Source: Roseobacter sp. SK209-2-6
GTDB lineage: Bacteria; Pseudomonadota; Alphaproteobacteria; Rhodobacterales; Rhodobacteraceae
Assembly (NCBI RefSeq): GCF_000169455.1
Contig: NZ_AAYC01000006.1
Location: forward strand, 62,001 to 126,000
DNA: 64,000 bases
Reading direction: 5' to 3'
In this document: positions 5,155 through 45,784 of the stretch, in pieces
How the letters are laid out: each line of letters begins with the position of its first letter
Numbering within the stretch: position 1 is the stretch's first letter
Notes under the pieces: model-generated
Database searches by the model: none
What the model was told of the DNA's origin: nothing
Seen by the model: only the letters and a program-made list of their open reading frames with translations
Made by a program: the position numbers and the translations under genes

Positions 5155-6120
5155 TTAGAGCCCGAGCCAGGCATCTACACGGTCAGGATTGGCTTCAACC
5201 CATTCACGCGCAACCTCTGAAGGTTCACGGCCTTTGCCACTGATTTCATAGGCAAAACCCGAGACATCATCAGCAGTCAGAGCAAAATTTGCAAAGAACT
5301 CCGCTATGGCGGGAGAGCGACCTTCAAGTGAGTTTGACCAGGCGATCTGAACATTCTTGAGCGCATCTTTGGTGGCGACAGAGGATTTTTCGTACCAATC
5401 AGGGTCGTCCGAGGGCTGAACCATGACATATTTTGCGGGGTCAAAGGTTGGTTCACTCAACATTTCTACGTCAAACATGAACCAGACTGCGTGAGGCTTG
5501 TAACAATAGAAAGCATAGCCTTCACCCTTGGCGATACTGTCTTTGATGCGAGCTGTCTTTACGCTCTCTTCCGCTCGGATGGGCTCGATAAAGTCAAGCA
5601 AGCCGTAATCGCGGGTCTTCACTTCGTTCACATTGGCCGAAGCCCATCCTGGCGCGCCAATCCACATCTCGCCTTTGCCGTTGCCATCGCTATCCATCAA
5701 AGTTGCCACGTCCGGACGGCCCAGATCCGCGATATCGGTAATGTTGTTCGCTTCTCCAAAAGCCTTGGAGACGCAAAATCCCTGATTGCCCTCATAGGGG
5801 TTAGACGACAGGGTCACTGTGCCGGCGCCATCAACGTATTTTTGAGTGAAGCTTTGCTGGTTGGGAAGCCAGACATCTGGATGGACATCAATGTCGCCCT
5901 TGCCCTGATCCATTGCTTGAAAAATCGTCGCGTTGTTGCCCGGCACATATTCGACCTTACCCCCGATGCGCATTTCAACAACCGCGCCAAGAAGATGCGC
6001 AATCGCCTGTGCGCCGGTCCAGGAAGGAACACCGATCTTGACCTCTTCTGCCGCAAAGGCAGGCGTCGCAAAAATGCTAACCGCAGCCGCCAGTCCCATC
6101 TTTCTTAACTTGTTTCCCAT
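5155..6120 (-). CDS. proX: Glycine betaine-type ABC transporter substrate-binding protein
   Basis: A 321-residue periplasmic OpuAC-type binding protein. The chosen start at 6120 follows an AGAGGAGAA ribosome-binding site and begins a signal peptide (MGNKLRKMGLAAAVSIFA, cleavage after AFA). A longer frame to 6300 lacks these traits. Aromatic positions suited to a cation-pi cage are visible: PSWTGAQ near the mature N-terminus, HPDVWLPNQ, GAPGWASANV and KPHAVWFMF. It leads the operon binding protein - ATPase - permease - hydrolase, and the divergent LysR gene is 262 bp away. Betaine, proline betaine, choline or a related amine are all possible ligands. Confidence 0.9.
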   Translation of the reverse strand: MGNKLRKMGLAAAVSIFATPAFAAEEVKIGVPSWTGAQAIAHLLGAVVEMRIGGKVEYVPGNNATIFQAMDQGKGDIDVHPDVWLPNQQSFTQKYVDGAGTVTLSSNPYEGNQGFCVSKAFGEANNITDIADLGRPDVATLMDSDGNGKGEMWIGAPGWASANVNEVKTRDYGLLDFIEPIRAEESVKTARIKDSIAKGEGYAFYCYKPHAVWFMFDVEMLSEPTFDPAKYVMVQPSDDPDWYEKSSVATKDALKNVQIAWSNSLEGRSPAIAEFFANFALTADDVSGFAYEISGKGREPSEVAREWVEANPDRVDAWLGL

Positions 6121-12353: not shown

Positions 12354-13331
12354 TTAAAAACCAATGGCAGTCTTGGTAATTCTGCCTGCTTTCAGCCCCG
12401 CATCTGTCCTCTGGAATGCCCCAACAATTTCGGCCAGGGCGGAAACTGCGATTGAAGAGGCGTCCCGCAGTGTTGGCACCAGACCAAGCGGGCCGTGTAA
12501 ACGGAAAAGGCTCGCCTCAGAAACGCCCATTTGCCGCAATGTTTCTTTACGTATTGCGTGAGTGCGGCGGCTTCCGAGGCAGCCAATAAATTGGGCGGGG
12601 GTATCGAGCGCGGCCCGCAGCAGGTTTGGTTCCCAATCATGGTCATGGAACAATGTCAGAAAGGCAGAATGTGCGTCCAACATATCAAGGGAAGGCTGCG
12701 CACGGGGGGATGTGAGATGCAGCGGTGTCTGGCTTGACAGGTGGCCAATTGCTTCCAGGTCCTCTGTCTCAGGGGACAGCAAATATAGGTCAAATCCCAT
12801 CGCTTGGCCAATCTGCGCCATGGACCGAAAAACTGCCCCGCGTCCGGACAACACAAGGCGATGCTGGGGGGCGTAGGTGAATGCCCGAGACACCAGTTTC
12901 GCCTCCTCTTGTCCCTCGAAGGTCAGTGTCACCGTCTGACGTGCGGTAAATGCTTTTGCGGCAGCTAGGATCGCTTCTGTGTCAGGCGTGGGGTCAATCA
13001 GGACCGTCAGAGCACCGCCGCAGGGGAGTTTGAGATCCACATAGCAGGATCCGTCGCCGTAGCGGATCGTTTTCTTCTGCCCTGAATGCAGGGCCTCCAC
13101 TGCGTGCAGCTGAATGTCGCGATCTATGCAGCCGTTTGACAGATACCCTGTCATCTGCCCGCTCTGGTCTACCAGCGCGAGGGAGCCAACCTCCCTCGCC
13201 GCCCCGCCTTCGATTGCAAGGGAGGTGATCAATGCAAAAGGTCGGGCAGCACGAATATGCGCCGCCCCTTTTGTAATGATGTCTGATGCGTGTTCAGCGT
13301 AGAGCAGACCGTTAAACGGTGGCATCTTCAT
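12354..13331 (-). CDS. coxI: XdhC-family protein, CoxI position in CO dehydrogenase operon
   Basis: A 325-residue XdhC-type maturation factor. The N-terminal XdhC/CoxI domain includes a SNGCIDRDIQLHAVEAL segment with the conserved Cys, and CYVDLKLPCGG. The C-terminal Rossmann-like domain includes FIGCLGSRRTHAIRKETLRQ. XdhC proteins bind and insert the sulfurated molybdenum cofactor into hydroxylases; in Oligotropha carboxidovorans two such genes (coxF, coxI) are in the cox cluster, as here. The start overlaps coxG by 20 bp (Met1 at 13331 or Met3 at 13325). Last gene of the operon. Confidence 0.82.
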   Translation of the reverse strand: MKMPPFNGLLYAEHASDIITKGAAHIRAARPFALITSLAIEGGAAREVGSLALVDQSGQMTGYLSNGCIDRDIQLHAVEALHSGQKKTIRYGDGSCYVDLKLPCGGALTVLIDPTPDTEAILAAAKAFTARQTVTLTFEGQEEAKLVSRAFTYAPQHRLVLSGRGAVFRSMAQIGQAMGFDLYLLSPETEDLEAIGHLSSQTPLHLTSPRAQPSLDMLDAHSAFLTLFHDHDWEPNLLRAALDTPAQFIGCLGSRRTHAIRKETLRQMGVSEASLFRLHGPLGLVPTLRDASSIAVSALAEIVGAFQRTDAGLKAGRITKTAIGF

Positions 13332-13767
13332 TCACGACGCTCGCAAAGGATTTGAAGAACTTTGCCGCCAGCTTTTTGGCAGTGCTTTGGATGAGACGGC
13401 TGCCCAATTGAGCCAGCTTGCCGCCAATGTCGGCCTTGGCCTCATAGCGGAGGATGGTCTTGTCTGGTCCATCTGCGGTCAGCGTGACATCGGCGCCGCC
13501 CTTGGCATGGCCTGCGGCACCACCATTACCCTGGCCGGTCAGTGAGAACGCATCTGGCGCGCCTGCTGTGTCCAATTGGACATCTCCGTTGAACTTGGCT
13601 TTCACGGGGCCGATTTTCAGCACGACTTTGGCCTCAAGCTCTGCGTCGGAATGTTTGATCAGTTCTTCGCAACCGGGGATGCACTGCTGCAGAATCTCCG
13701 GGTCATTCAGCGCGGCATAGACCACGTCTATAGGCGCGTTGATGGTGATTTCGTCTGTTAGTTCCAT
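13312..13767 (-). CDS. coxG: CoxG, SRPBCC-type CO dehydrogenase accessory protein
   Basis: A 151-residue CoxG/SRPBCC protein. It begins MELTDEITINAPIDVVYAAL, continues with DPEILQQCIPGCEEL (typical CoxG wording) and a beta-rich ligand-binding fold, and ends in a hydrophobic, Lys/Phe-rich C-terminal tail (about 125-145) of the kind that anchors CoxG at the membrane. In aerobic CO oxidisers CoxG recruits CO dehydrogenase to the membrane and is proposed to deliver or receive quinone. Its ribosome-binding site (AAGGACAT) overlaps the end of the 33-aa ORF upstream. Confidence 0.9.
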   Translation of the reverse strand: MELTDEITINAPIDVVYAALNDPEILQQCIPGCEELIKHSDAELEAKVVLKIGPVKAKFNGDVQLDTAGAPDAFSLTGQGNGGAAGHAKGGADVTLTADGPDKTILRYEAKADIGGKLAQLGSRLIQSTAKKLAAKFFKSFASVVNEDATV

Positions 13768-13779
13768 GAGATGTCCTTC

Positions 13780-13881
13780 TTAACAACAGGGAAATTTAAC
13801 TTGGGCCAATCGCTCGGCCTGTTCGGGTGTCAGGGCGAACATCCGACGCATGCGCGTGGCGATTTTACTGAGTGACTTCAT
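13780..13881 (-). CDS. Unrecognised 33-residue protein inside the cox operon
   Basis: ATG at 13881 to TAA at 13780, 33 residues. It has a strong AGGAGGAG ribosome-binding site, its ATG overlaps the stop of mocA (ATGA), and its stop lies 12 bp before the coxG start, so it sits exactly where a coupled operon gene would. The peptide starts MKSLSKIATRMRRMF (basic, amphipathic), continues ALTPEQAERLAQVKF, and ends PCC, i.e. with a vicinal Cys pair at the C-terminus. No family recognised. A metal- or cofactor-handling role is a guess from the cysteines and position. It may also simply couple mocA and coxG translation. Confidence 0.6.
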   Translation of the reverse strand: MKSLSKIATRMRRMFALTPEQAERLAQVKFPCC

Positions 13882-14486
13882 GAGATCTCCTCCTGGCGGG
13901 TTCGCAAAAGGGTGTCGTAGGCGTCTGGTGTATCGACGTCGGCATAAAATCCCGGAGCCGACAGTGCGTGAAACTGGACCTGGTCCGGATTGGCACGGGT
14001 GAATATTTTGCAGCCGGGCGACTGTGGATCGGCCAAGAGCCGTGGCCGCAGCCTGGCAGGCACCACAATGGGGTTGCCGCGTTTCTGGTCCTGAATGGGA
14101 ATGGAGATGCGCGCGGGATCCGCCGATGCATGGGCCGCAAGCAGAGCCCGCAGATCAGCGGTTGTCAAAAGCGGCTGGTCCCCCAGACCAATGAATATCA
14201 GCTCGCAGTCTTCTGCTGCCCGCAGCCCACAGGCTACGGATGTTTGCTGACCTTGGCTGTAGTCCGGGTTGACGACCGTCACGGCGGAGTTGCCCTCCAG
14301 CGCCGCTTCGATATGGTCTGCCTCATGTCCCGTAACCACCAGAACGGGCCGCGGTGTCACTTGGCTATAGAGATCTACCATATGCCGGATCATGGGGCGA
14401 CCATGGACTGGCAAGAGCAGCTTGTTGCGCTCCCCCATGCGACGCGACAGGCCGGCGGCCAATATGATCACGGCGACCTCAGACAT
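13878..14486 (-). CDS. mocA: MobA-like molybdenum cofactor cytidylyltransferase
   Basis: A 202-residue nucleotidyltransferase of the MobA/MocA type: IILAAGLSRRMGERNKLLLP (residues 7-26) is the nucleotide-binding signature and GLGDQPLL carries the metal-binding Asp. CO dehydrogenase uses molybdopterin cytosine dinucleotide, so a dedicated cytidylyltransferase in the operon makes sense. The gene overlaps coxF by 8 bp and the 33-aa ORF by ATGA. CTP specificity is inferred from context, not from residues. Confidence 0.82.
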   Translation of the reverse strand: MSEVAVIILAAGLSRRMGERNKLLLPVHGRPMIRHMVDLYSQVTPRPVLVVTGHEADHIEAALEGNSAVTVVNPDYSQGQQTSVACGLRAAEDCELIFIGLGDQPLLTTADLRALLAAHASADPARISIPIQDQKRGNPIVVPARLRPRLLADPQSPGCKIFTRANPDQVQFHALSAPGFYADVDTPDAYDTLLRTRQEEIS

Positions 14487-15258
14487 CGTTTTGGTTCGCA
14501 GTGGCTCGGCGCTCCTGCACCAGTTGCGCTAGGATCGAAAGGGCAATCTCCTCTGGTGTGATCGCCCCCAATTCCAGCCCGGCAGGGGCGTGAACGCCAT
14601 CGATTGCCGATTGATTCAGGCCGGCATCCCCAAGCTTTTTTGCAAGCGAGGCATATTTCCGGCGGCTTCCGACGAAGGCCACATAGCCCGATCCGACTTC
14701 AAGGGCGCTCTTCAGGGCATCCAGATCGCCTTGGCCTTGGGTGGCCACCACGATAAAGCGCTTCTTATGCGGTTTGTTCTTGTGCGGCGTTGCGGTGACG
14801 GACCAATGGAATGTGGGCGCAAGCTCGCTCAGAGCTCTGGCCACGGGTGACGACCCAATGACCACCAATTGGGGGATGGGCAGACAGGGTTCGATGAAAA
14901 TATCGACCGTCCCGCGCGACGGGCAGCCATTGCGAGCAAACTGGGTGCCATCCACTTCATCGCCTGCCGCTACGCCTTTCTCAGCCAGCAGATCCTCAGG
15001 CGCCACTGACACCAGCTGCGGCCGGCCCTCGTTCAACGCCTGAACGGCGGCGCGTTTAACCGCGCCGCGGGTGCATCCACCGCCAAGCCACCCCTGTAAA
15101 AGGGTGCCATCCGAACTCAGCAGCGCTTTTGCGCCGGGCTTGGCCGCCGTTGACCCGGCGGTACGCACGATAGTGGCAAAGGCAAAGGCTTCCTCCTTGG
15201 CGCGCAGCTCCTGCGCCGCCTCGGCCATATCGCTTGAAAGAAATTCAGCCGGTGTCAT
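14479..15258 (-). CDS. coxF: XdhC-family protein, CoxF
   Basis: A 259-residue XdhC-type protein in the coxF position directly after coxE, with an ATGA overlap. Motifs: TIVRTAGSTAAKPGAKALL at the N-terminus, GWLGGGCTRGAVKRAAVQAL with the conserved Cys, RGTVDIFIEPCLP, then the Rossmann-like half with VAFVGSRRKYASLAKKL and HAPAGLELGAITPEEIALSI. Role: handling and sulfuration or insertion of the Mo cofactor into CoxL. It is shorter than CoxI but has the same architecture. Confidence 0.85.
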   Translation of the reverse strand: MTPAEFLSSDMAEAAQELRAKEEAFAFATIVRTAGSTAAKPGAKALLSSDGTLLQGWLGGGCTRGAVKRAAVQALNEGRPQLVSVAPEDLLAEKGVAAGDEVDGTQFARNGCPSRGTVDIFIEPCLPIPQLVVIGSSPVARALSELAPTFHWSVTATPHKNKPHKKRFIVVATQGQGDLDALKSALEVGSGYVAFVGSRRKYASLAKKLGDAGLNQSAIDGVHAPAGLELGAITPEEIALSILAQLVQERRATANQNDV

Positions 15259-16436
15259 AATCTGGCAAGCTCCTTTTCCAAAGCCGCAAGATCAACAAGT
15301 GTATTGGCGGATTTGAATGCATCCAGATGCGGAAGGGCTGCGGCCATGCCCTCGGCCACCGGCGCGTAGTCTGCCCAACCTTTCAACGGGTTCAGCCAGA
15401 TTATCTTGCAGCCACGCTTGCGCAGCTTCTGCAGGGCCAAACCGGTCAGTTCCGGCGCCTCGGTGTCGTAGCCGTCCGACAGGATCAACACGACACTGCG
15501 CCCATCGACAAAACGTTTGGCATATGTATCGGCAAAGCGCATCAGGGACGGCCCGATCTTTGAGCCCCCGCCAAACCCATCCGCCATCAATGACATCCGC
15601 CCAATAGCACGCATCGCGTCCTTGTCGCGCAGCACATCGGTGATGCGCACAAGGCGAGTGTGAAACAGATAGGCATCCGCCGCGTTGTCCACCCGCATGA
15701 GCCCTGCAAGAAACGCCAGGAATACCTGCGCATAGACGGTCATCGACCCGGAGACATCACAAAGCGCCACGATCTTGCGGGTGCGGTCCGGGCGACGTTT
15801 GCGCAACAGGCGCAGGGGTTCGCCGCCGCTGGCAAGGCTATGACGGATGGTTTTGCGAAAGTGCAGCCGGTCACCTTTGCGCGCAGCAATCCGGCGGCGC
15901 GATCGTTTGTCAAAGAGCGCAGCGCCAATACGGCGAGCGACCTCCTCGGCTACGGCAATTTCATCGGGTCGCACCAAGTCGCGCAGATCGCGTCGGTTGA
16001 AATTTCGCAGTTCGGTCGCAATCAGTTTACCCGTGCCATCGCTTTCTGCCTCTCCGTCTTCACTGTCGGGCGCCGTGGCGGAGCCGGAAGCTCCGGCCTC
16101 CTTGCCCTTGGCATCACGCGAGGAATGCACATCGTCGTTCTGCGCGCTCGAAACGGTTGGGGTGACCCTTTGTTTAACCCGCCCCATATCCATCCAGTAG
16201 CTGTCAAACAGATCATCAAACCGCTCGATTTCTTCCTTGCACCCCGTGCACACGGCCCGCAGCACCCGGCGGCTATCATCAGGATGGACGGCATCAACAT
16301 GGGTCAAGGCAGCCAAGGCGATCTCGGCCTCGGCCACTCCAAGACGCAGCCCATTTTCGCGCAGATGGGCGATGAAACCCGCCATCCGAACAGAAGGTCC
16401 AGGATCACGGGCGGCAAATTTGGTCACACGGCTCAT
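15255..16436 (-). CDS. coxE: CoxE, VWA-domain CO dehydrogenase accessory protein
   Basis: A 393-residue VWA protein. The N-terminal helical part has MAGFIAHLRENGLRLGVAE, then an acidic Ser-rich linker (about 125-155). The C-terminal VWA domain has the metal-ion-dependent adhesion site CDVSGSMTVYAQ and LILSDGYDT. CoxD and CoxE act as a MoxR/VWA chaperone pair assembling the [CuSMoO2] site. The start at 16436 overlaps the coxD stop as ATGA. The much longer open frame to 16691 is only antisense-like read-through inside coxD. Confidence 0.9.
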   Translation of the reverse strand: MSRVTKFAARDPGPSVRMAGFIAHLRENGLRLGVAEAEIALAALTHVDAVHPDDSRRVLRAVCTGCKEEIERFDDLFDSYWMDMGRVKQRVTPTVSSAQNDDVHSSRDAKGKEAGASGSATAPDSEDGEAESDGTGKLIATELRNFNRRDLRDLVRPDEIAVAEEVARRIGAALFDKRSRRRIAARKGDRLHFRKTIRHSLASGGEPLRLLRKRRPDRTRKIVALCDVSGSMTVYAQVFLAFLAGLMRVDNAADAYLFHTRLVRITDVLRDKDAMRAIGRMSLMADGFGGGSKIGPSLMRFADTYAKRFVDGRSVVLILSDGYDTEAPELTGLALQKLRKRGCKIIWLNPLKGWADYAPVAEGMAAALPHLDAFKSANTLVDLAALEKELARL

Positions 16437-17308
16437 GCCGCCCGCCCCGCGATACGGCCTGCGACCTCTCGGGTGATCTGCGCCTGATCGCTTTGGGTTT
16501 TTAGCAAGGTGGTCAGCGTGGATTGCATCACGGCGGGATCCTCGGTGAGATCCGCAATGCCCAAGCCCATCAAAGCGGCGGCAAAATCCAGCATCTCGGC
16601 GATGCCCGGGGTCTTTTGCAACTCTTCTTGACGTAGTTTTTGCACAAAGCCGATGATCTGCTCGGCCAGACGCGCTTCGATGTCGGGGCATCGGGCCCTG
16701 AGAATGGCAAGCTCGGTCGCCCGATCAGGGTAGTCGACATAGGTGTAAAGACAGCGACGGCGCAATGCGTCCGAGAGATCACGGGTGCCGTTCGAGGTCA
16801 GGATTACGATGGGTCGGGTTACCGCTTTGATGGTGCCGAGTTCCGGAATGGAAATCTGAAAGTCGGATAGAATTTCCAATAGATAGGCCTCGAACTCCTC
16901 GTCCGCACGGTCGATTTCGTCAATCAGCAGAACCGGAGGGCTGTCCTGCGTGATCGCAGCAAGCAAGGGGCGCTCCAGCAGAAATTCCCGCGAGAAAATG
17001 CGCTGTTCGACCTCTTTTCCGGTTTCGCCATCTTCGGCTGCGGCGCGAATGGTCAGGAGTTGCCGCTGGTAATTCCATTCATAAATTGCCTGCGCTGCGT
17101 CCAGCCCTTCGTAGCATTGCAACCGGATGAGGCGCGTGTCTTCAACCTGCGACAGGGTGCGGGCGATTTCGGTTTTGCCGACGCCTGCAGCCCCTTCCAG
17201 CAACAGCGGTCGCCCAAGCGACAAGGCAAGTTGCAGGGCAACGGCAAGATCGTCAGAGGCTACATAGCCCTTTTCGGCAAGGCGGGATTTGAGATTGATC
17301 CAGGTCAT
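16433..17308 (-). CDS. coxD: CoxD, MoxR-type AAA+ ATPase
   Basis: A 291-residue MoxR-family AAA+ protein. Walker A is LLEGAAGVGKTEIA (35-48), Walker B is LLIDEIDRADEEFEAYLLE, sensor 1 is IVILTSNGTRDLSDALRRRC. In O. carboxidovorans CoxD is needed to convert inactive CO dehydrogenase into the sulfur- and copper-containing form. It lies 44 bp after coxL, separated by an 11-bp perfect stem-loop, and overlaps coxE. Confidence 0.92.
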   Translation of the reverse strand: MTWINLKSRLAEKGYVASDDLAVALQLALSLGRPLLLEGAAGVGKTEIARTLSQVEDTRLIRLQCYEGLDAAQAIYEWNYQRQLLTIRAAAEDGETGKEVEQRIFSREFLLERPLLAAITQDSPPVLLIDEIDRADEEFEAYLLEILSDFQISIPELGTIKAVTRPIVILTSNGTRDLSDALRRRCLYTYVDYPDRATELAILRARCPDIEARLAEQIIGFVQKLRQEELQKTPGIAEMLDFAAALMGLGIADLTEDPAVMQSTLTTLLKTQSDQAQITREVAGRIAGRAA

Positions 17309-17352: not shown

Positions 17353-19779
17353 TTAGCCGTGCAAGCCGAGGTCACTGGCGGTCTTCCAGATGCGCCAATG
17401 ATCATGCGGCATATTGGTATGCGTATTGCCAAAGGCTCGGAAGGCATCCTGCACGGCATTGGAGAAACAGGGCACCCCCCCCACATGCGGGCTTTCACCA
17501 ACACCCTTGGCACCGATCGGGTGATGCGGGCTTGGGGTCACGGTATAGTCGGTCTCGTAGTTGGGAACCTCCCAGGCCGTTGGGAGGAAGAAATCCATCA
17601 AGGTGCCGGTCTTGCAATTGCCCATATCGTCATAGGCAATTTCCTGCCCCAATGCGACGGCCAGCGCCTCGGTCAGACCGCCATGCACCTGACCTTCGAT
17701 GATCATCGGATTGATCCGGGTGCCACAATCGTCCAGTGCATAGAAGCGACGGATTTCCGGCACACCGGTATCGACGTCAATATCCATCACACAGATATAG
17801 GCGCCAAAGGGATAAGTCATATTGGGCGGGTCGTAATAGCTAACCGCCTCCAGACCGGGCTCGACACCGGGAATTGCCTGATTGTAGGACGCAAAGGCGA
17901 TCTCTTTCATGGTCTTGAAGCGCTCGGGCGCGCCTTTCACCACAAAGCGATCAACATCGAACTCCACGTCATTGTCGTGCACTTCCAGCAGATAGGCCGC
18001 GATCATCTGCGCCTTGGCACGGATTTTGCGCCCCGCCATGGCTGTTGCGGCCCCCGCCACCGGTGTCGATCGGGAGCCGTATGTCCCCAGACCATAAGGC
18101 GCAGTGTCGGTATCGCCTTCTTCTATGGTGATGCTGTCCGCTGGCAGGCCGATCTCGGAGGCAAGAATTTGTGCGAAGGTTGTTGCGTGCCCCTGTCCTT
18201 GGGAAATGGTGCCAAGCCGCGCAATGGCCGAACCCGTCGGGTGAATGCGGATTTCGCAGCTGTCGAACATGCCCAGACCAAGGATATCGCAGTTCTTTAC
18301 CGGGCCGGCACCGACAATCTCGGTAAAGAACGACAGGCCGATCCCCATCAATTTGCGGGTCTTGCCAGCCTTGAAATCCTCAACCCGCTGCGCCTGTTCG
18401 GCACGCAGCCCTTTGTAGTCAACGGTGTCCAGCGCCTTGTCCCAGGCCGTGTGGTAGTCGCCTGAATCATATTCCCAGCCCAGCGCGGCGGTATAGGGGA
18501 ACTGCTCTTTCTTGATAAAGTTGATCCGGCGCAACTCAGCGGCGTCCATATTCAGCTTGATCGCCAGGACCTCGATCATCCGTTCAATAAAATAAACAGC
18601 CTCGGTCACCCGGAAGGAGCAGCGATAGGAAACACCGCCCGGAGCCTTGTTGGTATAGACACCATCGACCGCTAGATAGGCGGTTGGGATGTCATAAGAG
18701 CCGGTGCAGATATTCATGAAGCCGGCCGGGAACTTGGTGGGATCCGCACAGGCGTCGAAGCCGCCATGATCCGCGGTGACATGGCAATGCAGCCCGGTGA
18801 TCTTGCCGTCTCTGGTGGCAGAGATCTTTCCGGTCATGTGATAATCCCGCGCAAAGGCGGTTGTCATCAGATTGTCCATGCGGTCTTCGATCCACTTCAC
18901 CGGCTTGCCGGTGACAATGGAGGCCACAACCGAGCAGACATAGCCCGGATAGGCCCCCACCTTGTTGCCAAAGCCACCACCAATATCGGGCGAGATCACC
19001 CGGATATTGTGTTCTTCAATGCCGGAGATCAGCGACACGATAGTGCGGATCGCATGTGGCGCCTGGAAGGTGCCCCACAGGGTCAGCTTGCCGTTGACCT
19101 TGTCCATTGACGCCACAGAGCCGCAGGTTTCCAACGGGCATGGGTGGGTGCGATGATAATACATGGTCTCTTCGGCCACGACTTCGGCAGTGTCGATGAC
19201 CTGCTCTGTCGGTTCTTTGTCGCCAGCTTCCCATGTAAAGATATGGTTGTGATGCTTTCGGGGACCATGCGCCCCATCGGGGAGAGAGCCGTCTTCCGCC
19301 ACCAGATCTTCGCGCAGAACCACGTCTGATTGCAGCGCCGCGAATGGGTCAACAACAACGGGAAGCTCTTCGTATTCCACCTCAACCGCCTCGATACCAT
19401 CGGCAGCGGCATAGCGGTCTTCGGCGACGACAAAGGCGACTTCCTGACCCTGGAACAGTACTTTACCATCTGCCAGGACCATTTGCTTGTCGCCCGCCAA
19501 TGTCGGCATCCAATGCAGGCCTAGAGGTTCCAGATCTGCGGCCGTCAGCACCGCTATCACACCAGGAACTTCAAGGGCTGCGGCAGCGTCGATATTGGTA
19601 ATGCGCGCGTGCGCATAGGGCGAGCGGACAAAGTCGCCAAACAGCATCCCGTCCAGCTTGATGTCGTCAACATAGTTGCCCTTGCCCTGAGTGAAGCGGG
19701 CATCCTCAACCCGCTTGCGCGAACAGCCCATGCCTTTGAGATTTTCGACGCGCTCGTCGCGAGTGATATCGTCCTTCAT
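17353..19779 (-). CDS. coxL: Aerobic CO dehydrogenase large subunit, form I
   Basis: An 808-residue molybdenum subunit oxidising CO to CO2 at a [CuSMoO2] site. The active-site loop is SYRCSFR at 384-390, with the copper-ligand Cys387 (codon 18621-18619). This is the form I (bona fide CO dehydrogenase) signature AYxCSFR with Ser in place of Ala, and not the form II AYRGAGR. The catalytic Glu is Glu762 in [18 protein letters not shown] (267-273) and [10 protein letters not shown] are cofactor-binding. Both key residues are one lower than in O. carboxidovorans CoxL (Cys388, Glu763), so alignment is essentially colinear. The ATG at 19779 follows AAGGAGG and overlaps the coxS stop (ATGA). The longer frame to 19968 is rejected. 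Confidence 0.97.
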
Positions 19780-20270
19780 TCTGCCGCCTCCTTGGCTGCA
19801 TTCATTTCTGTGGCTGCGGCCTGAATGGATTTCACAATGTTCTGGTAACCCGTGCAGCGGCAGATATTGCCGGCCATGCCAAAGCGGATCTCTTCTTCGG
19901 TTGGGTTGGGGTTTTCTTCCAACAGATTGCTCGCGCGGGTGATCATACCTGGGGTGCAATAGCCGCATTGCAGTCCGTGATGCTCCTTGAAGGCCTCCTG
20001 CAGAGGGTGCAGATTGTCTGGCCCGCCAATGCCTTCAATTGTCGTCACCTCGGCACCATCCGCTTGGGCGGCAAACATGGTGCAAGACTTTACGGACTTT
20101 CCATTGATCGTGACGGTGCAGGCTCCGCAATGGGAGGTCTCGCAGCCAATATGCGGGCCGGTTATGTTCAGCCGTTCACGCAGCGTGTAGATCAGCAACT
20201 CACGCGGTTCAGCGAAGAACTCTTCGTCCTTGCCATTCACTTTCAGCTTGATGTGCATCTTCTTTGACAT
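19776..20270 (-). CDS. coxS: Aerobic CO dehydrogenase iron-sulfur (small) subunit
   Basis: A 164-residue two-[2Fe-2S] subunit. The N-terminal ferredoxin-like cluster has Cys43, 48, 51 and 63 ([10 protein letters not shown]...C). The C-terminal helical cluster has Cys102, 105, 137 and 139 (QCGYCTPGM and NICRCTGY). It passes electrons from the Mo site in CoxL to the FAD in CoxM. The ATG at 20270 with GGGAGAA upstream is preferred to the longer frame reaching 20297 inside coxM. Confidence 0.96.
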
Positions 20271-20281
20271 GCTGTTCTCCC

Positions 20282-21136
20282 TCAGGCCCGCGACCAAGCG
20301 CGTTCGATGGCGCGGCGCAGGATGATGCCCGCCACGTGGTTCTTGAATGCGACAGGGCCGCGATTGTCCTCGGTGGGATCAATGTCGCCCAGCATTGCAG
20401 CCACGGCGGCTGCCAGTGCTGCCTCGTCAACGGTCGTGCCGACAAGTGCGGCCCCTGCCGCCTCGGAATAGATCGGTGTATCGCTGAGGTTTGTCATTGC
20501 GATCGAGGCGCTGGCACAGGTGCCGCCATCTTTGACGATCTGCACCGCGGCTGCGGCTGTGGCGTAGTCCCCGATTTTGCGCTTTTGCTTTTCATAGGCA
20601 TAACCGCCTGCAGGCAGTGGGATGGAAACAGCTGTCAGTACTTCCTCATCCTCACGTGCGGTCATATAGGCGGCTTCGTAGAAGTCCCGCGCCGGGATCT
20701 CACGCTCACCGTCTAGGCCGATCACTCTGAAACTTGCGTCGAGGCATTGCATCAACCCCGGCATGTCATTGCCCGGATCGCCATTGGCGACATTGCCACC
20801 AACAGTCCCCATATAACGGACCTGTGGATCGGCAATCTGCAATGCTGCTTCGCGCAGGATTGGCGCGACCTTGGCCAGCTCTGGGTGATCAATAATGTCA
20901 GCCTGCGTGACCATGGCACCGATGCGGATGGCTTCGTTATCGATCTCGACACCGGACAGGCCATCGACATCTTGAAGGTCAATCAGGTGTGGCACATCCG
21001 CCATGCGCAGCTTCATCATGGGAATGAGGCTGTGGCCCCCCGCCATGACACGCGCGTCATCGCCATGTTCCTCCAGCAGGGATAAAACCCCCGCCATATC
21101 CTTGGGTCGATAATATTCGAACGCCGCTGGAATCAT
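20282..21136 (-). CDS. coxM: Aerobic CO dehydrogenase FAD (medium) subunit
   Basis: A 284-residue flavoprotein subunit. It has the two FAD pyrophosphate motifs of the family, AGGHS at 32-36 and TVGGN at 111-115, the latter in [14 protein letters not shown]. The C-terminal CO dehydrogenase flavoprotein domain follows. The start at 21136 has a strong GGAGGAG eight bases upstream, and an in-frame ATG at 21160 lacks it. First structural gene of the operon, 112 bp after coxC. Confidence 0.95.
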
Positions 21137-21233
21137 CGCCTTTCTCCTCCCTAAAAGCAAATGTTCTCGCTAGGGGGAGCCTGCATACGCCCACATACTG
21201 CAGCACTAGAAAATCAATGAAACACGGGTATTT

Positions 21234-21263
21234 TGCACGAAATGCGCGTTAGCCTGCACGAAC
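21234..21263 (-). promoter_or_regulatory. Direct repeats with LytTR-site geometry upstream of coxM
   Basis: On the minus strand GTTCGTGCA (21263-21255) and TTTCGTGCA (21242-21234) are 9-bp direct repeats with one mismatch, separated by exactly 12 bp (21 bp start to start, two helical turns). LytTR domains typically bind two 9-bp direct repeats with such spacing. The site lies 98-127 bp before the coxM start and overlaps the 3' end of coxC, whose product has a LytTR domain. Binding is inferred. Confidence 0.55.
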
Positions 21264-22442
21264 TGCACCGACCTGCGAAGCCAGAGCATTCTGAATGATC
21301 TTGAGCTTGGAGCGGCTGACGGGTGCTGGTGGCAAATCTGCCCCCCCAAAGATGCAGCGGCCCTTGTCCTTGGTCCGCTCAAAGCGAACCACGCGATCGG
21401 GATTGACCAGATAGCTGCGATGGGTCTGCATAAATCCGACCGTGATCAGCCGCTTGGTAGCATCGGTAATGGGCCAGGCGCAGAACAGATGCTCATCTGC
21501 TGTGTAGACCTGCGTGTAGTGCCCATCAGCGCGCACAAAGAGCACATCAGCGGAGCGGATAAAGACCTTACTCCCATCGCGCTCGCAGGGGATCTGCAAA
21601 CCAACCACGGCTTCCGGCGCCGATCTCGGCTCGGACCTCGAAGCGTGGCTTGGCTCTGTGGCGGCTTCGGGTTGGGCCGAGGGGGCTACGACCAGATAGG
21701 TGACGCTGACCCAAAGGCAGGTGCCAAAGATCACAAAGCTGAAAAAGATCACTCCTAGAGCAAGTGTCTCATTGCTCATCACCGGGCCGAATTCAGCCAG
21801 ACTGGGGACTGCCACGAAATTTGTTCCCGTCATGGCCAGGAAATGCACCGCGCAGACGGCAATTGCAAAGCAGAGCGTGCCCAGAAGGATATTGCGGTTT
21901 GTGCGCTGCCCATAGGCAATCCAGAAGGCCGCGATACAAAGGCCAACGGCCACGAAAGACGAGAAAGCAACACCTGAGACGGAAAAAACGGCGCGGCAGA
22001 GCTCGAGTCCAGCCATGCCGATGTAATGCATTGCTAGAATTCCGGCTCCGACAATGCCCCCGGCCAGCGTGATGATCACCGGTGTCCGATTGGCAAAATG
22101 CAGTATGATCAGCGCCGCACCGACAAGCAAAATCGCCGACAGGGCCGAAACCAGGGTGATCGCCGCGTCATAATAAAACAGAATAGGCAGTTGCAGCCCC
22201 AGCATGGCCACAAAATGCATCGCCCAAATGCCGCCCCCCAAGGCAACGGATGCAAGTGCGATAGAGGCCTTTTTCTGAAACATCGGCTTTTCTGCGAGAT
22301 CCCGCGTAAGTGAAAGCCCAGTGAACCCCGCCACAAGCGCAACAAGGCAGGACATCGCGACCAAAAAGCCGCTGTGACTGGTGTTTAAAAATTCCATGCC
22401 GAGCAAGATGACTAAGACAATGACATTTTGCAAATACTCCAC
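21249..22442 (-). CDS. coxC: CoxC-like MHYT membrane sensor with LytTR DNA-binding domain
   Basis: A 397-residue one-component regulator. The N-terminal seven-span MHYT domain shows the repeated motif as WAMHFVAM, LAMHYIGM and CAVHFLAM, with SHSGFLVA as the first copy. These His/Met residues were proposed to bind copper and sense a gas such as CO. After a linker comes a C-terminal LytTR domain (about 290-385: FIRSADVLFVRADGHYTQVY, MQTHRSYLVNPDRV). O. carboxidovorans CoxC and CoxH have the same architecture. The frame opens with GTG at 22442. The in-frame ATG at 22397 (MEFLNTSH) is an equally good or better start. Probable activator of coxMSL. Confidence 0.88.
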   Translation of the reverse strand: MEYLQNVIVLVILLGMEFLNTSHSGFLVAMSCLVALVAGFTGLSLTRDLAEKPMFQKKASIALASVALGGGIWAMHFVAMLGLQLPILFYYDAAITLVSALSAILLVGAALIILHFANRTPVIITLAGGIVGAGILAMHYIGMAGLELCRAVFSVSGVAFSSFVAVGLCIAAFWIAYGQRTNRNILLGTLCFAIAVCAVHFLAMTGTNFVAVPSLAEFGPVMSNETLALGVIFFSFVIFGTCLWVSVTYLVVAPSAQPEAATEPSHASRSEPRSAPEAVVGLQIPCERDGSKVFIRSADVLFVRADGHYTQVYTADEHLFCAWPITDATKRLITVGFMQTHRSYLVNPDRVVRFERTKDKGRCIFGGADLPPAPVSRSKLKIIQNALASQVGAVRAG

Positions 22443-43705: not shown

Positions 43706-45784
43706 ATGCCTAGTGGTTACCTGGTCACACTCGGGGACAGTACGCTCGACACCGGAGATGTTATCTCGGGTGGCTACACTGCCTTTACGACGGATACCGT
43801 AATAGGCAGCGGCGACTGGACCTGGAGTGGCACAGTTGGCGGCTTTCCCTATACTGATGAGGTTGAGCCAGGGACTTATTATCTGGCGACCGATGGGAAT
43901 GTCTATTTCACTCCGGACCTTGGACCAGTCGATACGCTGACCAGCGCGACCGCAACCAATCCACCTGCCTATACGGATCTTGATGGCACCATTGATGGAA
44001 CCGCTGGAGCAGATCTCATCGATTCCGGTTATTCCGATGCTGAGGGGGATCAGGTCGATAATGGGCTTGGGGGCGGGGCCGGGAATGACGACACCATCGA
44101 GGCCGGAGCCGGAAATGACACCATTGATGCTGGCAGTGGTGCTGACAGTATCTTTGGCGGGGCTGGTGCAGACAGCATCGAGGGCGGTAGCGGCGCTGAT
44201 CTAATCCATGGCGATACGGAAGCAGAACAGGATCTGACCCCAACGCCGACCACGATCACCGACACAAATGTTGCTGATACCGGCAGCGGCTATACGGTGA
44301 CGGCAACGCCTATTGGTGGCAGCCCAAGTGCTGCCAATATCGCCACCTGGAGCGGTGGGTTTGGTGTTGCAGGTGCGATCTCTGACTCTGACAGCGCGGT
44401 GACGGAGCAAATTGGCTACGACCTTGCAACAGGGCAAAGTGAGGCCTTGATCGTAGATCTCGATAGCCCTGTTGATGAGCTGTCCTTCTCGTATGACTAT
44501 CTCTTTACCGATACCTACGGGGAAGAGGGGCACTGGGCCGTCTATGACGGAGGAGTGCTGGTCGCCGAGGGTGATTTTACCGAGGACACTATTGGATCCG
44601 GTTCTGGGTCAGTGACCATCAATGGGGTTGGAAACTTCGACCAATTGGTGCTGACCGCAAATATTCAAACCGACCTTACCGATGGCTCTGATTATATGGT
44701 CTCGGATATTTCCTTCACCCTCCCCGTTGTTGAGGCAGATCCCTATGCCGATTCCATCTCGGGCGGAGCCGGAGATGACACCATTTTTGGCGAGGGTGGT
44801 GATGACACGCTTTTAGGTGGCGATGACAATGACAGTATTGATGGGGGCGAAGGTGCCGATAGCCTAGAGGGGGGCAGCGGCGATGATACCCTGATCGGTG
44901 GCGCTGGTGTGGACACGCTGGTCGGCGGCACGGGCAGTGATTCCATCACTGGTGGAAGTGGCGATGACAGCATCAAGCTTTCCGAAGGAGATACCGCAAC
45001 CGGTGGCGACGATCGCGACACCTTCACTCTCATTGACCGTGGTGAGACCGGAAGCGCCAGCATCACCATAGATGGCAATGAGGGCGGGGATGATTGGGAT
45101 ACTCTTGATCTGAATGGCGTGGCTGACAGAAGCACCCTCAGCTTTACAGATTCAGGTGATGGAACCCTCAGCGGAACGGTTTCTCTGCTGGATGGCAGCC
45201 TGGTCACTTTTTCAAATATCGAGCAAATCATCTGTTTCGCCTCGGGCACAAGGATCACCACATTGGCGGGTGCCGTTCCGGTAGAGGAGCTGCAGATTGG
45301 CGATATGGTCTTGACCCGCGACAATGGCTACCAGCCGGTACGTTGGATCGGTAAGACTACGGTCCCCGCTCTTGGTGAATTTGCCCCAATCCGCATTTCA
45401 GCGGGCACCCTTGGGTGCAGCCGCGATCTGCTGGTTTCGCCACAACATCGCCTATTGATAAGGGGAACCGCAGCCCGCATGCTCTATGGCAGTGACGAAG
45501 TTCTGACAGTGGCCAGACATCTATTGAACGACCACAGCATTTGTCGCCAGCCTGGAGGTGCGGTCACCTATGTCCATCTTCTCCTGGATCAGCATGAGGT
45601 GATCTTTGCGGAAAACTGCCCAACAGAGAGTTTCTTTCCCGGAGATCAAGCGCTGGAAGCCCTTTGCCCCAGCGCCCTCCACTCTCTCTTTGACTGTCTG
45701 CCTGATCTGAGGAGCAATCCCGGCAGCTATGGCCCAACCGCCCGCCTATGCCTGACCCGCAGCGAAACTAGGGCGCTGATCTGA
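43706..45784 (+). CDS. Secreted RTX-repeat protein with C-terminal Hint domain
   Basis: A 692-residue protein. The N-terminal part (1-90) is beta-like. RTX Ca-binding nonapeptides form two blocks, at about 95-170 (GGAGNDDTIEAG, GSGADSIFGGAGADSIEGG) and 350-430 (GGAGDDTIFGEGGDDTLLGG and on). Between them is a beta-sandwich-like stretch. A Hint (Hedgehog/intein) domain starts at Cys510: CFASGTRITTLAGAVPVEEL, IGDMVLTRDNGYQPVRWIG, SPQHRLLIRG. RTX plus Hint proteins in Rhodobacterales are type I secretion substrates; the Hint domain may cleave or ligate autocatalytically. No T1SS genes are adjacent. It lies alone between prfB and mrcA on the opposite strand. Confidence 0.88.
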   Translation: MPSGYLVTLGDSTLDTGDVISGGYTAFTTDTVIGSGDWTWSGTVGGFPYTDEVEPGTYYLATDGNVYFTPDLGPVDTLTSATATNPPAYTDLDGTIDGTAGADLIDSGYSDAEGDQVDNGLGGGAGNDDTIEAGAGNDTIDAGSGADSIFGGAGADSIEGGSGADLIHGDTEAEQDLTPTPTTITDTNVADTGSGYTVTATPIGGSPSAANIATWSGGFGVAGAISDSDSAVTEQIGYDLATGQSEALIVDLDSPVDELSFSYDYLFTDTYGEEGHWAVYDGGVLVAEGDFTEDTIGSGSGSVTINGVGNFDQLVLTANIQTDLTDGSDYMVSDISFTLPVVEADPYADSISGGAGDDTIFGEGGDDTLLGGDDNDSIDGGEGADSLEGGSGDDTLIGGAGVDTLVGGTGSDSITGGSGDDSIKLSEGDTATGGDDRDTFTLIDRGETGSASITIDGNEGGDDWDTLDLNGVADRSTLSFTDSGDGTLSGTVSLLDGSLVTFSNIEQIICFASGTRITTLAGAVPVEELQIGDMVLTRDNGYQPVRWIGKTTVPALGEFAPIRISAGTLGCSRDLLVSPQHRLLIRGTAARMLYGSDEVLTVARHLLNDHSICRQPGGAVTYVHLLLDQHEVIFAENCPTESFFPGDQALEALCPSALHSLFDCLPDLRSNPGSYGPTARLCLTRSETRALI

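Follow-up and report, generated by a model that had tools for sequence, protein, structure and literature searches.

A conserved, mostly unannotated microprotein gene directly upstream of coxG in form I CO dehydrogenase operons of Rhodobacteraceae

The CoxG protein of CO dehydrogenase (CODH) gene clusters is reportedly the subject of a 2025 study by Kropp et al. A 2026 survey, in its accessible portions, cites CoxG as a menaquinone-binding protein that hands electrons on, and states that microbes with CO dehydrogenase consume the greater part of the CO produced in the ocean (PMC13240472). According to the accessible portions of PMC4240915, coxG mutants of Oligotropha use CO and grow much more slowly, and their CODH is described as copper-deficient, with 51% activity, in one place and as complete in others; its authors consider CoxG dispensable for cluster assembly and name CoxF as the copper supplier. 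Cysteine-bearing ORFs directly upstream of a partner gene are known from the copper-responsive uORFs CutF and CruR (DUF2946), which, as far as the excerpts of the sources go, have CxxxC or CxxC motifs and a Pro-rich or RAPP end, CutF also having a signal peptide and a stem-loop (PMC9973294). Both are far longer (90 residues in the mature part of CutF, 145 in CruR) than the peptide that we describe here in a cox operon. We found no earlier description of such a peptide in the open-licence literature, the accessible portions of PMC5036791, PMC13203968, PMC4240915 and PMC13240472 included.

The window analysed here, the whole stretch of 64,000 nucleotides from Roseobacter sp. SK209-2-6, contains a form I cox operon on the minus strand with the transcription order coxM, coxS, coxL, coxD, coxE, coxF, mocA, microprotein ORF, coxG and a second XdhC-family gene. 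The coordinates of coxM (20282..21160) and coxS (19776..20297) are those of mechanical ORFs, as are those of coxE (VWA_CoxE, 15255..16691), whose real start is probably more internal; the start of coxL (17353..19779, form I, motif SYRCSFR) was chosen by us, and the window's CoxL is 96% identical to the CoxL of a Rhodobacteraceae record. Family matches identified coxD (AAA+ ATPase, 16433..17308), coxF (XdhC/CoxI family, 14479..15258) and the second XdhC/CoxI-family gene (12354..13331), which overlaps the end of coxG. The mocA-like molybdenum cofactor nucleotidyltransferase gene (13878..14486) matched PF12804, its best NCBIfam match, TIGR03310, lying below that family's cut-off, and coxG (13312..13767, PF06240) encodes a 151-residue protein without a C-terminal tail. 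In one operon, mocA, the microprotein gene and coxG lie between two different XdhC/CoxI-family genes, at 12354-13331 and 14479-15258 on the minus strand. Just upstream of coxM, a gene on the same strand (21249-22442) encodes a protein with MHYT and LytTR domains, which we take to regulate the cox cluster from the membrane in the manner of CoxC/CoxH. Elsewhere in the window, the product of a plus-strand gene (43706-45784) combines RTX calcium-binding repeats with a Hint domain at its C-terminus.

An earlier note on this DNA had described a complete 33-residue ORF between mocA and coxG with its own ribosome-binding site, an ATGA overlap with mocA and a 12-bp gap to coxG, and all of these features were present. 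In the ORF list of the window, and by comparison with orthologues, the microprotein gene (MKSLSKIATRMRRMFALTPEQAERLAQVKFPCC) occupies 13780..13881 of the minus strand, stop included, begins with ATG and ends in KFPCC. Its Shine-Dalgarno site, AGGAGGAG, lies within the 3' end of mocA (13887..13894, minus strand), 5 nt upstream of the ATG; the mocA stop and the microprotein start overlap by the 4 nt ATGA; and the 12 nt between the microprotein TAA and the coxG ATG hold an AAGGA string (13774..13778, minus strand) resembling a Shine-Dalgarno site for coxG.

We searched 198 Rhodobacteraceae genomes with the microprotein and obtained 53 matches at E <= 1. Thirty of these loci were fetched, of which 26 (L001-L025 and L029, the window's own counted) were cox loci with a Cys-Cys-ended frame and four (L026, L027, L028 and L030) were unrelated. 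In 25 of the 26, coxG lay directly downstream, the exception being L021. Two of the 26 frames, in L011 (also L224, genome G055) and L021 (genome G035), lack an intact start, which may reflect decay or sequencing error; in L021 a stop lies close to the start and no coxG follows.

A second sample was drawn through CoxL and comprised the best 80 of at least 519 CoxL matches in Rhodobacteraceae, among which coxG follows in 66 loci, no coxG is present after coxF in 11, and the contig ends too early in three (L074, L094 and L138). The frame and its Cys-Cys end, on whose conservation the earlier note had staked its proposal, were kept directly upstream of coxG in 60 of the 66 coxG-bearing form I cox loci of this best-80 sample; the ORF of L091 is present and ends in Ser-Cys, and in five loci (L076, L082, L121, L136 and L144) it is absent or decayed. 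In every one of the 60 Cys-Cys-ended cases the stop was located 11-39 nt upstream of the coxG ATG, and in 58 of them a Shine-Dalgarno-like string for coxG followed the stop directly. The motif [FLHP][PS](x)CC-stop occurred 58 times at the microprotein site and 10 times elsewhere on both strands of the 80 loci (1.38 Mb), one of these off-site matches being the copy of the ORF in L146. The commonest end was K-F-P-C-C, and a second form, [FY]-P-[KR]-C-C, was seen in L104, L129, L139, L142, L145, L146 and L148. Lengths ranged from 26 to 50 aa, and among 59 peptides with a usable start 55 began with ATG and 4 with TTG, as chosen by a score that prefers ATG and a Shine-Dalgarno site. An orthologue at the equivalent place in Marivivens is annotated as a 'hypothetical protein' of 40 aa (WP_301547026.1) without a name, and the ORF is not listed as a gene in two other plasmid records, although the PLSDB gene tables are incomplete. 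Because the ORF is conserved, we regard it as protein-coding. The proposal of a coupled, conserved small protein was thus borne out: the ORF at 13780-13881 is a true microprotein gene that belongs to Rhodobacteraceae form I cox operons and is translationally coupled, and its product is a real, conserved and mostly unannotated component of the CO-oxidation operons of many members of this family.

Purifying selection acts on the microprotein. Across six close pairs, defined by a CoxG pN below 0.04, a limit set after the other four pairs proved distant, dN/dS was 0.21 (pS 0.251, pN 0.062, Fisher p 6e-9), far from the ratio near 1 that the earlier note had named as grounds for abandoning the gene; over all ten pairs it was 0.42. 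With all ten pairs, the N-terminal part gave 0.62 (p 0.015) and the last 17 codons 0.27, and these last 17 residues, anchored on the stop, were more conserved than the N-terminus. Codons varied at conserved residues (CAG/CAA, TTC/TTT, CCC/CCT/CCA and TGT/TGC), and all three types of stop were used. As the 45 rows of the codon table were chosen by a pattern requiring Q, K and PCC, and alignments A1 and A4 were built from rows picked for a Cys-Cys end, invariance at those positions is no evidence of conservation, but the variation of codons is. These results bear on the option, kept in the earlier note, that the ORF is only a translational spacer between mocA and coxG. The ATGA overlap and the short gap would suit a spacer, but amino acids were kept while synonymous sites changed freely, and the gene is also kept where mocA is absent (e.g. 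L009 and L012); contradicted by the selection on the peptide, a pure spacer is hardly credible.

The basic start and Pro-Cys-Cys end noted earlier proved typical of the peptide. Over 58 peptides the N-terminal part had a mean net charge of +4.4 (range 0 to 7), and in 93% of them its hydrophobic moment exceeded the shuffled mean, describing a basic, amphipathic stretch; the rows are related and so do not amount to 58 independent tests. For this set, L113, one of the 60 Cys-Cys-ended loci, lacked a usable start, and two peptides whose N-terminal part fell short of 10 residues were left out. The microprotein has no transmembrane helix, and none of its sequences, judged by eye, has a hydrophobic helix before the Cys pair. 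In Pfam and NCBIfam nothing exceeded its cut-off (the best was RHH_3, with 12.6 bits against 21.6) and no PF06240/SRPBCC domain was found, and among solved structures no relative was found (best profile match E 0.058).

The stop-anchored conservation of the last 17 residues, the length of 26-50 aa and the coxG Shine-Dalgarno-like string that directly follows the stop in 58 of 60 loci would also fit a regulatory leader peptide, in which coxG output would be set by translating the ORF or by pausing at its conserved end, as CutF and CruR do for copper genes. Like these uORFs, the microprotein is a Cys-bearing ORF directly upstream of its partner gene. However, alignments A1 and A4 contain no CxxC or CxxxC motif, only the adjacent C-terminal Cys pair being conserved; there is no Pro-rich or RAPP arrest-like end, a single conserved Pro preceding the Cys pair; there is no signal peptide such as that of CutF; and the microprotein/coxG junction lacks a stem-loop shielding the downstream Shine-Dalgarno site of the kind shown for CutF in the accessible part of PMC9973294. 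Predicted junction structure was absent altogether (mean z +0.42, with 1 of 60 loci below -2), and alifold found no pairs across 20 loci with a 13-nt gap. Furthermore, coxG persists beside a decayed ORF, and the Cys pair, being translated last, could hardly sense copper outside the ribosome. A leader function is therefore quite improbable in our judgement. Two related candidates were considered: an RNA attenuator or Shine-Dalgarno-shielding hairpin was ruled out by the lack of junction structure, and attenuation at the Cys codons is not favoured, because residues distant from these codons appear to be conserved.

We addressed the relation of the microprotein to coxG by turning to the 11 loci of the best-80 sample (of at least 519 CoxL matches) that keep coxL and lack coxG. 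The microprotein ORF was present in only one of them (L146). In the same loci coxD was open in all 11 and coxF in 10, that of L073 being cut short, and the Cu-ligand motif [SA]YRCSFR was found in CoxL of all 80 loci sampled. The genomes of the coxG-less loci have CoxG paralogues elsewhere only, 43-53% identical, and no Cys-Cys-ended ORF lies upstream of these paralogues, where L157 showed one unrelated Cys-Cys frame on the opposite strand. In a CoxL tree with 81 rows, made by a quick method, eight independent pairs on supported branches differed in coxG; on average the ORF differed in the same way in 5.7 of these, in the opposite way in 0 and not at all in 2.3 (sign test, median p 0.031, range 0.016-0.25). 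Since a single deletion can take out adjoining genes, the joint loss of ORF and coxG is weaker evidence than it appears. Form I cox operons without an adjoining coxG were seen in L188 (genome G448), L073, L075, L095, L108, L119, L122, L125, L135, L137, L140, L146 and L189; on the CoxL tree coxG was lost repeatedly and the structural cox genes stayed.

These losses also bear on the earlier suggestion that the peptide handles copper or the sulfurated cofactor, as a carrier bringing Cu(I) or sulfur to the Mo-S-Cu site of CODH. Such a role would be consistent with the terminal vicinal cysteines, with a gene located downstream of coxF, the copper supplier according to the available text of PMC4240915, and with the copper-deficient CODH that the same text reports in one place for a coxG mutant. 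On the other hand, the peptide has no CxxC-type motif, and its ORF is absent from 10 of the 11 coxG-less loci that keep coxL, coxD and mostly coxF, a pattern of loss that speaks against a copper or cofactor role. In addition, the peptide was not found in 18 of 19 genomes outside the family that encode CoxL (four of them covered in part), so form I CODH commonly matures without it. The one genome of the 19 that does encode a comparable peptide, in genus g306, has it beside coxF with no coxG and counts in favour of a carrier. The suggestion was weakened overall, and we consider a carrier function unlikely.

A comparison of CoxG proteins brought out a further feature of the family. CoxG encoded in the cox operon measured 149-154 aa in all 66 coxG-bearing Rhodobacteraceae loci among the best 80 of at least 519 CoxL matches, whereas 13 of 17 cox-cluster CoxGs from outside the family exceeded 160 aa and had a basic and/or hydrophobic tail, the four without a tail being L037 (Shinella), L246, L247 and L248. 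The tail contained Cys-Cys in 5 of these 17 (Afipia, Bradyrhizobium betae, Rhizobium sp. SL42, G459 and G596), a count to be read with the facts that the search which turned up the Bradyrhizobium and Rhizobium proteins used the tail itself as query and that G459 and G596 (L192 and L201) belong to one genus. Among 41 CoxGs not encoded beside coxF, none had a Cys-Cys tail and 36 were longer than 165 aa. In the tails of L036, L192, L201, L231 and L232 the Cys-Cys follows a hydrophobic helix and a third Cys stands near the end (I-C-[ST]); we found no mention of this Cys-Cys in the accessible portions of PMC4240915, PMC13240472, PMC5036791 and PMC13203968. The CoxG tails of Afipia carboxidovorans, Bradyrhizobium betae and Rhizobium sp. 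SL42 resemble the microprotein in combining a basic/aromatic membrane-type segment with vicinal cysteines, and by charge and moment the microprotein has such a basic segment. They differ from it in being a covalent part of CoxG, in the hydrophobic helix before the Cys pair and in the residues after that pair; the microprotein is a separate peptide that has no such helix and ends at the Cys pair. A separate observation concerned a CoxG paralogue on a Sulfitobacter plasmid (L035), located beside a cytochrome c gene and a pqqABCDE cluster with no CODH gene within the 12 kb examined, hinting that CoxG-like proteins may serve other quinone-linked enzymes.

The resemblance, one of features, raises the possibility that the microprotein substitutes for the missing CoxG tail. 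However, CoxGs without a tail also occur without the microprotein, in 5 of the 66 family loci (L076, L082, L121, L136 and L144), in G907 (L250) and in L037, L246, L247 and L248, which means that a missing tail is not regularly compensated by the peptide, and the substitute role, while possible, is weakened.

Outside Rhodobacteraceae, profile searches that scored the best 19-20 candidates per genome gave three matches below E 1e-10 in 385 genomes of the class and six at E <= 0.001 in 398 genomes of the phylum, all of them Rhodobacteraceae. Taking CoxL at E <= 1e-250 as form I, 17 of the 385 class genomes (13 outside the family) and 18 of the 398 phylum genomes (10 outside) qualified. Within the family part of the phylum search, six of the eight genomes with CoxL had the microprotein; G448 had neither microprotein nor coxG nearby, and G907 had coxG without the microprotein. 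We inspected the neighbourhood after coxL in 19 non-family genomes, made up of 11 of the 13 from the class search and 8 more, with partial coverage in four (L194 and L198 end in coxE; L197 and L199 have no recognised coxF). One of the 19, G304 (L193), encodes a comparable peptide, MKKRLLGSAVGRIRALLRRVIEQASDTTPVCC, directly after coxF at 5424-5519 of the reverse complement of the locus. A search of 36 genomes of its family, f107, added G979, G980 and G982 (L234, L235 and L236) with 57-80% identity and E values of 1e-7 to 1e-9, so that four of five genomes of genus g306 have the peptide, G981 being without it. As the profile searches had missed this peptide, other diverged forms may exist.

The g306 peptides have 31-32 aa, a net charge of +6 to +8, a moment z of 1.9-2.3 and the end P[VI]CC, and pairwise dN/dS was 1.08 (with few changes), 0.40 and 0.33, a further pair being saturated. 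They share with the microprotein the basic amphipathic N-terminal part, a Pro near the terminal Cys-Cys and the setting in a form I cox operon; they differ in ending P[VI]CC rather than FPCC, in being encoded last in the operon and in lying below the reach of the family profile. This likeness of features makes the two similar, with homology a candidate interpretation only. In g306 no coxG lies beside the gene, and the nearest CoxG of G304 is encoded elsewhere and has a long tail. In the mechanical ORF lists of L234-L236, the gene-like long ORFs beyond the peptide are on the opposite strand, and overlapping long frames on the same strand were taken for shadows; as a candidate homologue without coxG or an evident same-strand gene downstream, the g306 peptide tells against the leader function. 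Because it stands without an adjoining coxG, CoxG cannot be the whole story. Together with the further CoxGs lacking a tail, this find lowered our estimate for a detached tail and for a leader, and raised it for roles that do not run through CoxG. One such role would be another small accessory function, such as keeping CODH or CoxF stable at the membrane. The selection on the peptide, its lack of a recognised domain and the g306 copies without coxG are consistent with this, but the joint loss with coxG in Rhodobacteraceae counts against it, and we regard such a function as rather doubtful, though worth keeping in mind.

The explanation that we prefer, tentatively and at somewhat less than an even chance, is that the microprotein is a dithiol-bearing accessory peptide that acts on the membrane side of form I CODH and, in Rhodobacteraceae, works with CoxG, as its sequence and gene neighbourhood suggest. 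The basic amphipathic stretch would place it on the inner face of the cytoplasmic membrane, where it may serve the membrane side of the CODH system, in Rhodobacteraceae with the quinone-linked partner CoxG. More speculatively, it might do in trans part of the job of the C-terminal membrane tail present in many other CoxGs, and its vicinal dithiol could be a redox, Cu(I)-binding or contact site. Two loci depart from the general pattern, L091 with its Ser-Cys end and L146, which keeps the ORF without coxG. A broader possibility, which we think unlikely as it stands, is that form I CODH has a membrane dithiol element which can move between carriers: a separate peptide encoded before coxG in Rhodobacteraceae, a stand-alone peptide encoded after coxF in a second family, and the tail of CoxG itself in some Hyphomicrobiales. 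The Cys-Cys of this element would be a working redox or Cu(I) site, either in the passage of electrons from CODH to quinone or in preparing the enzyme at the membrane.

The passage of electrons from CODH to quinone has been tied to CoxG only recently. A conserved accessory peptide at this quinone step, nameless in or missing from the annotations that we saw, would add a part to aerobic CO oxidation.
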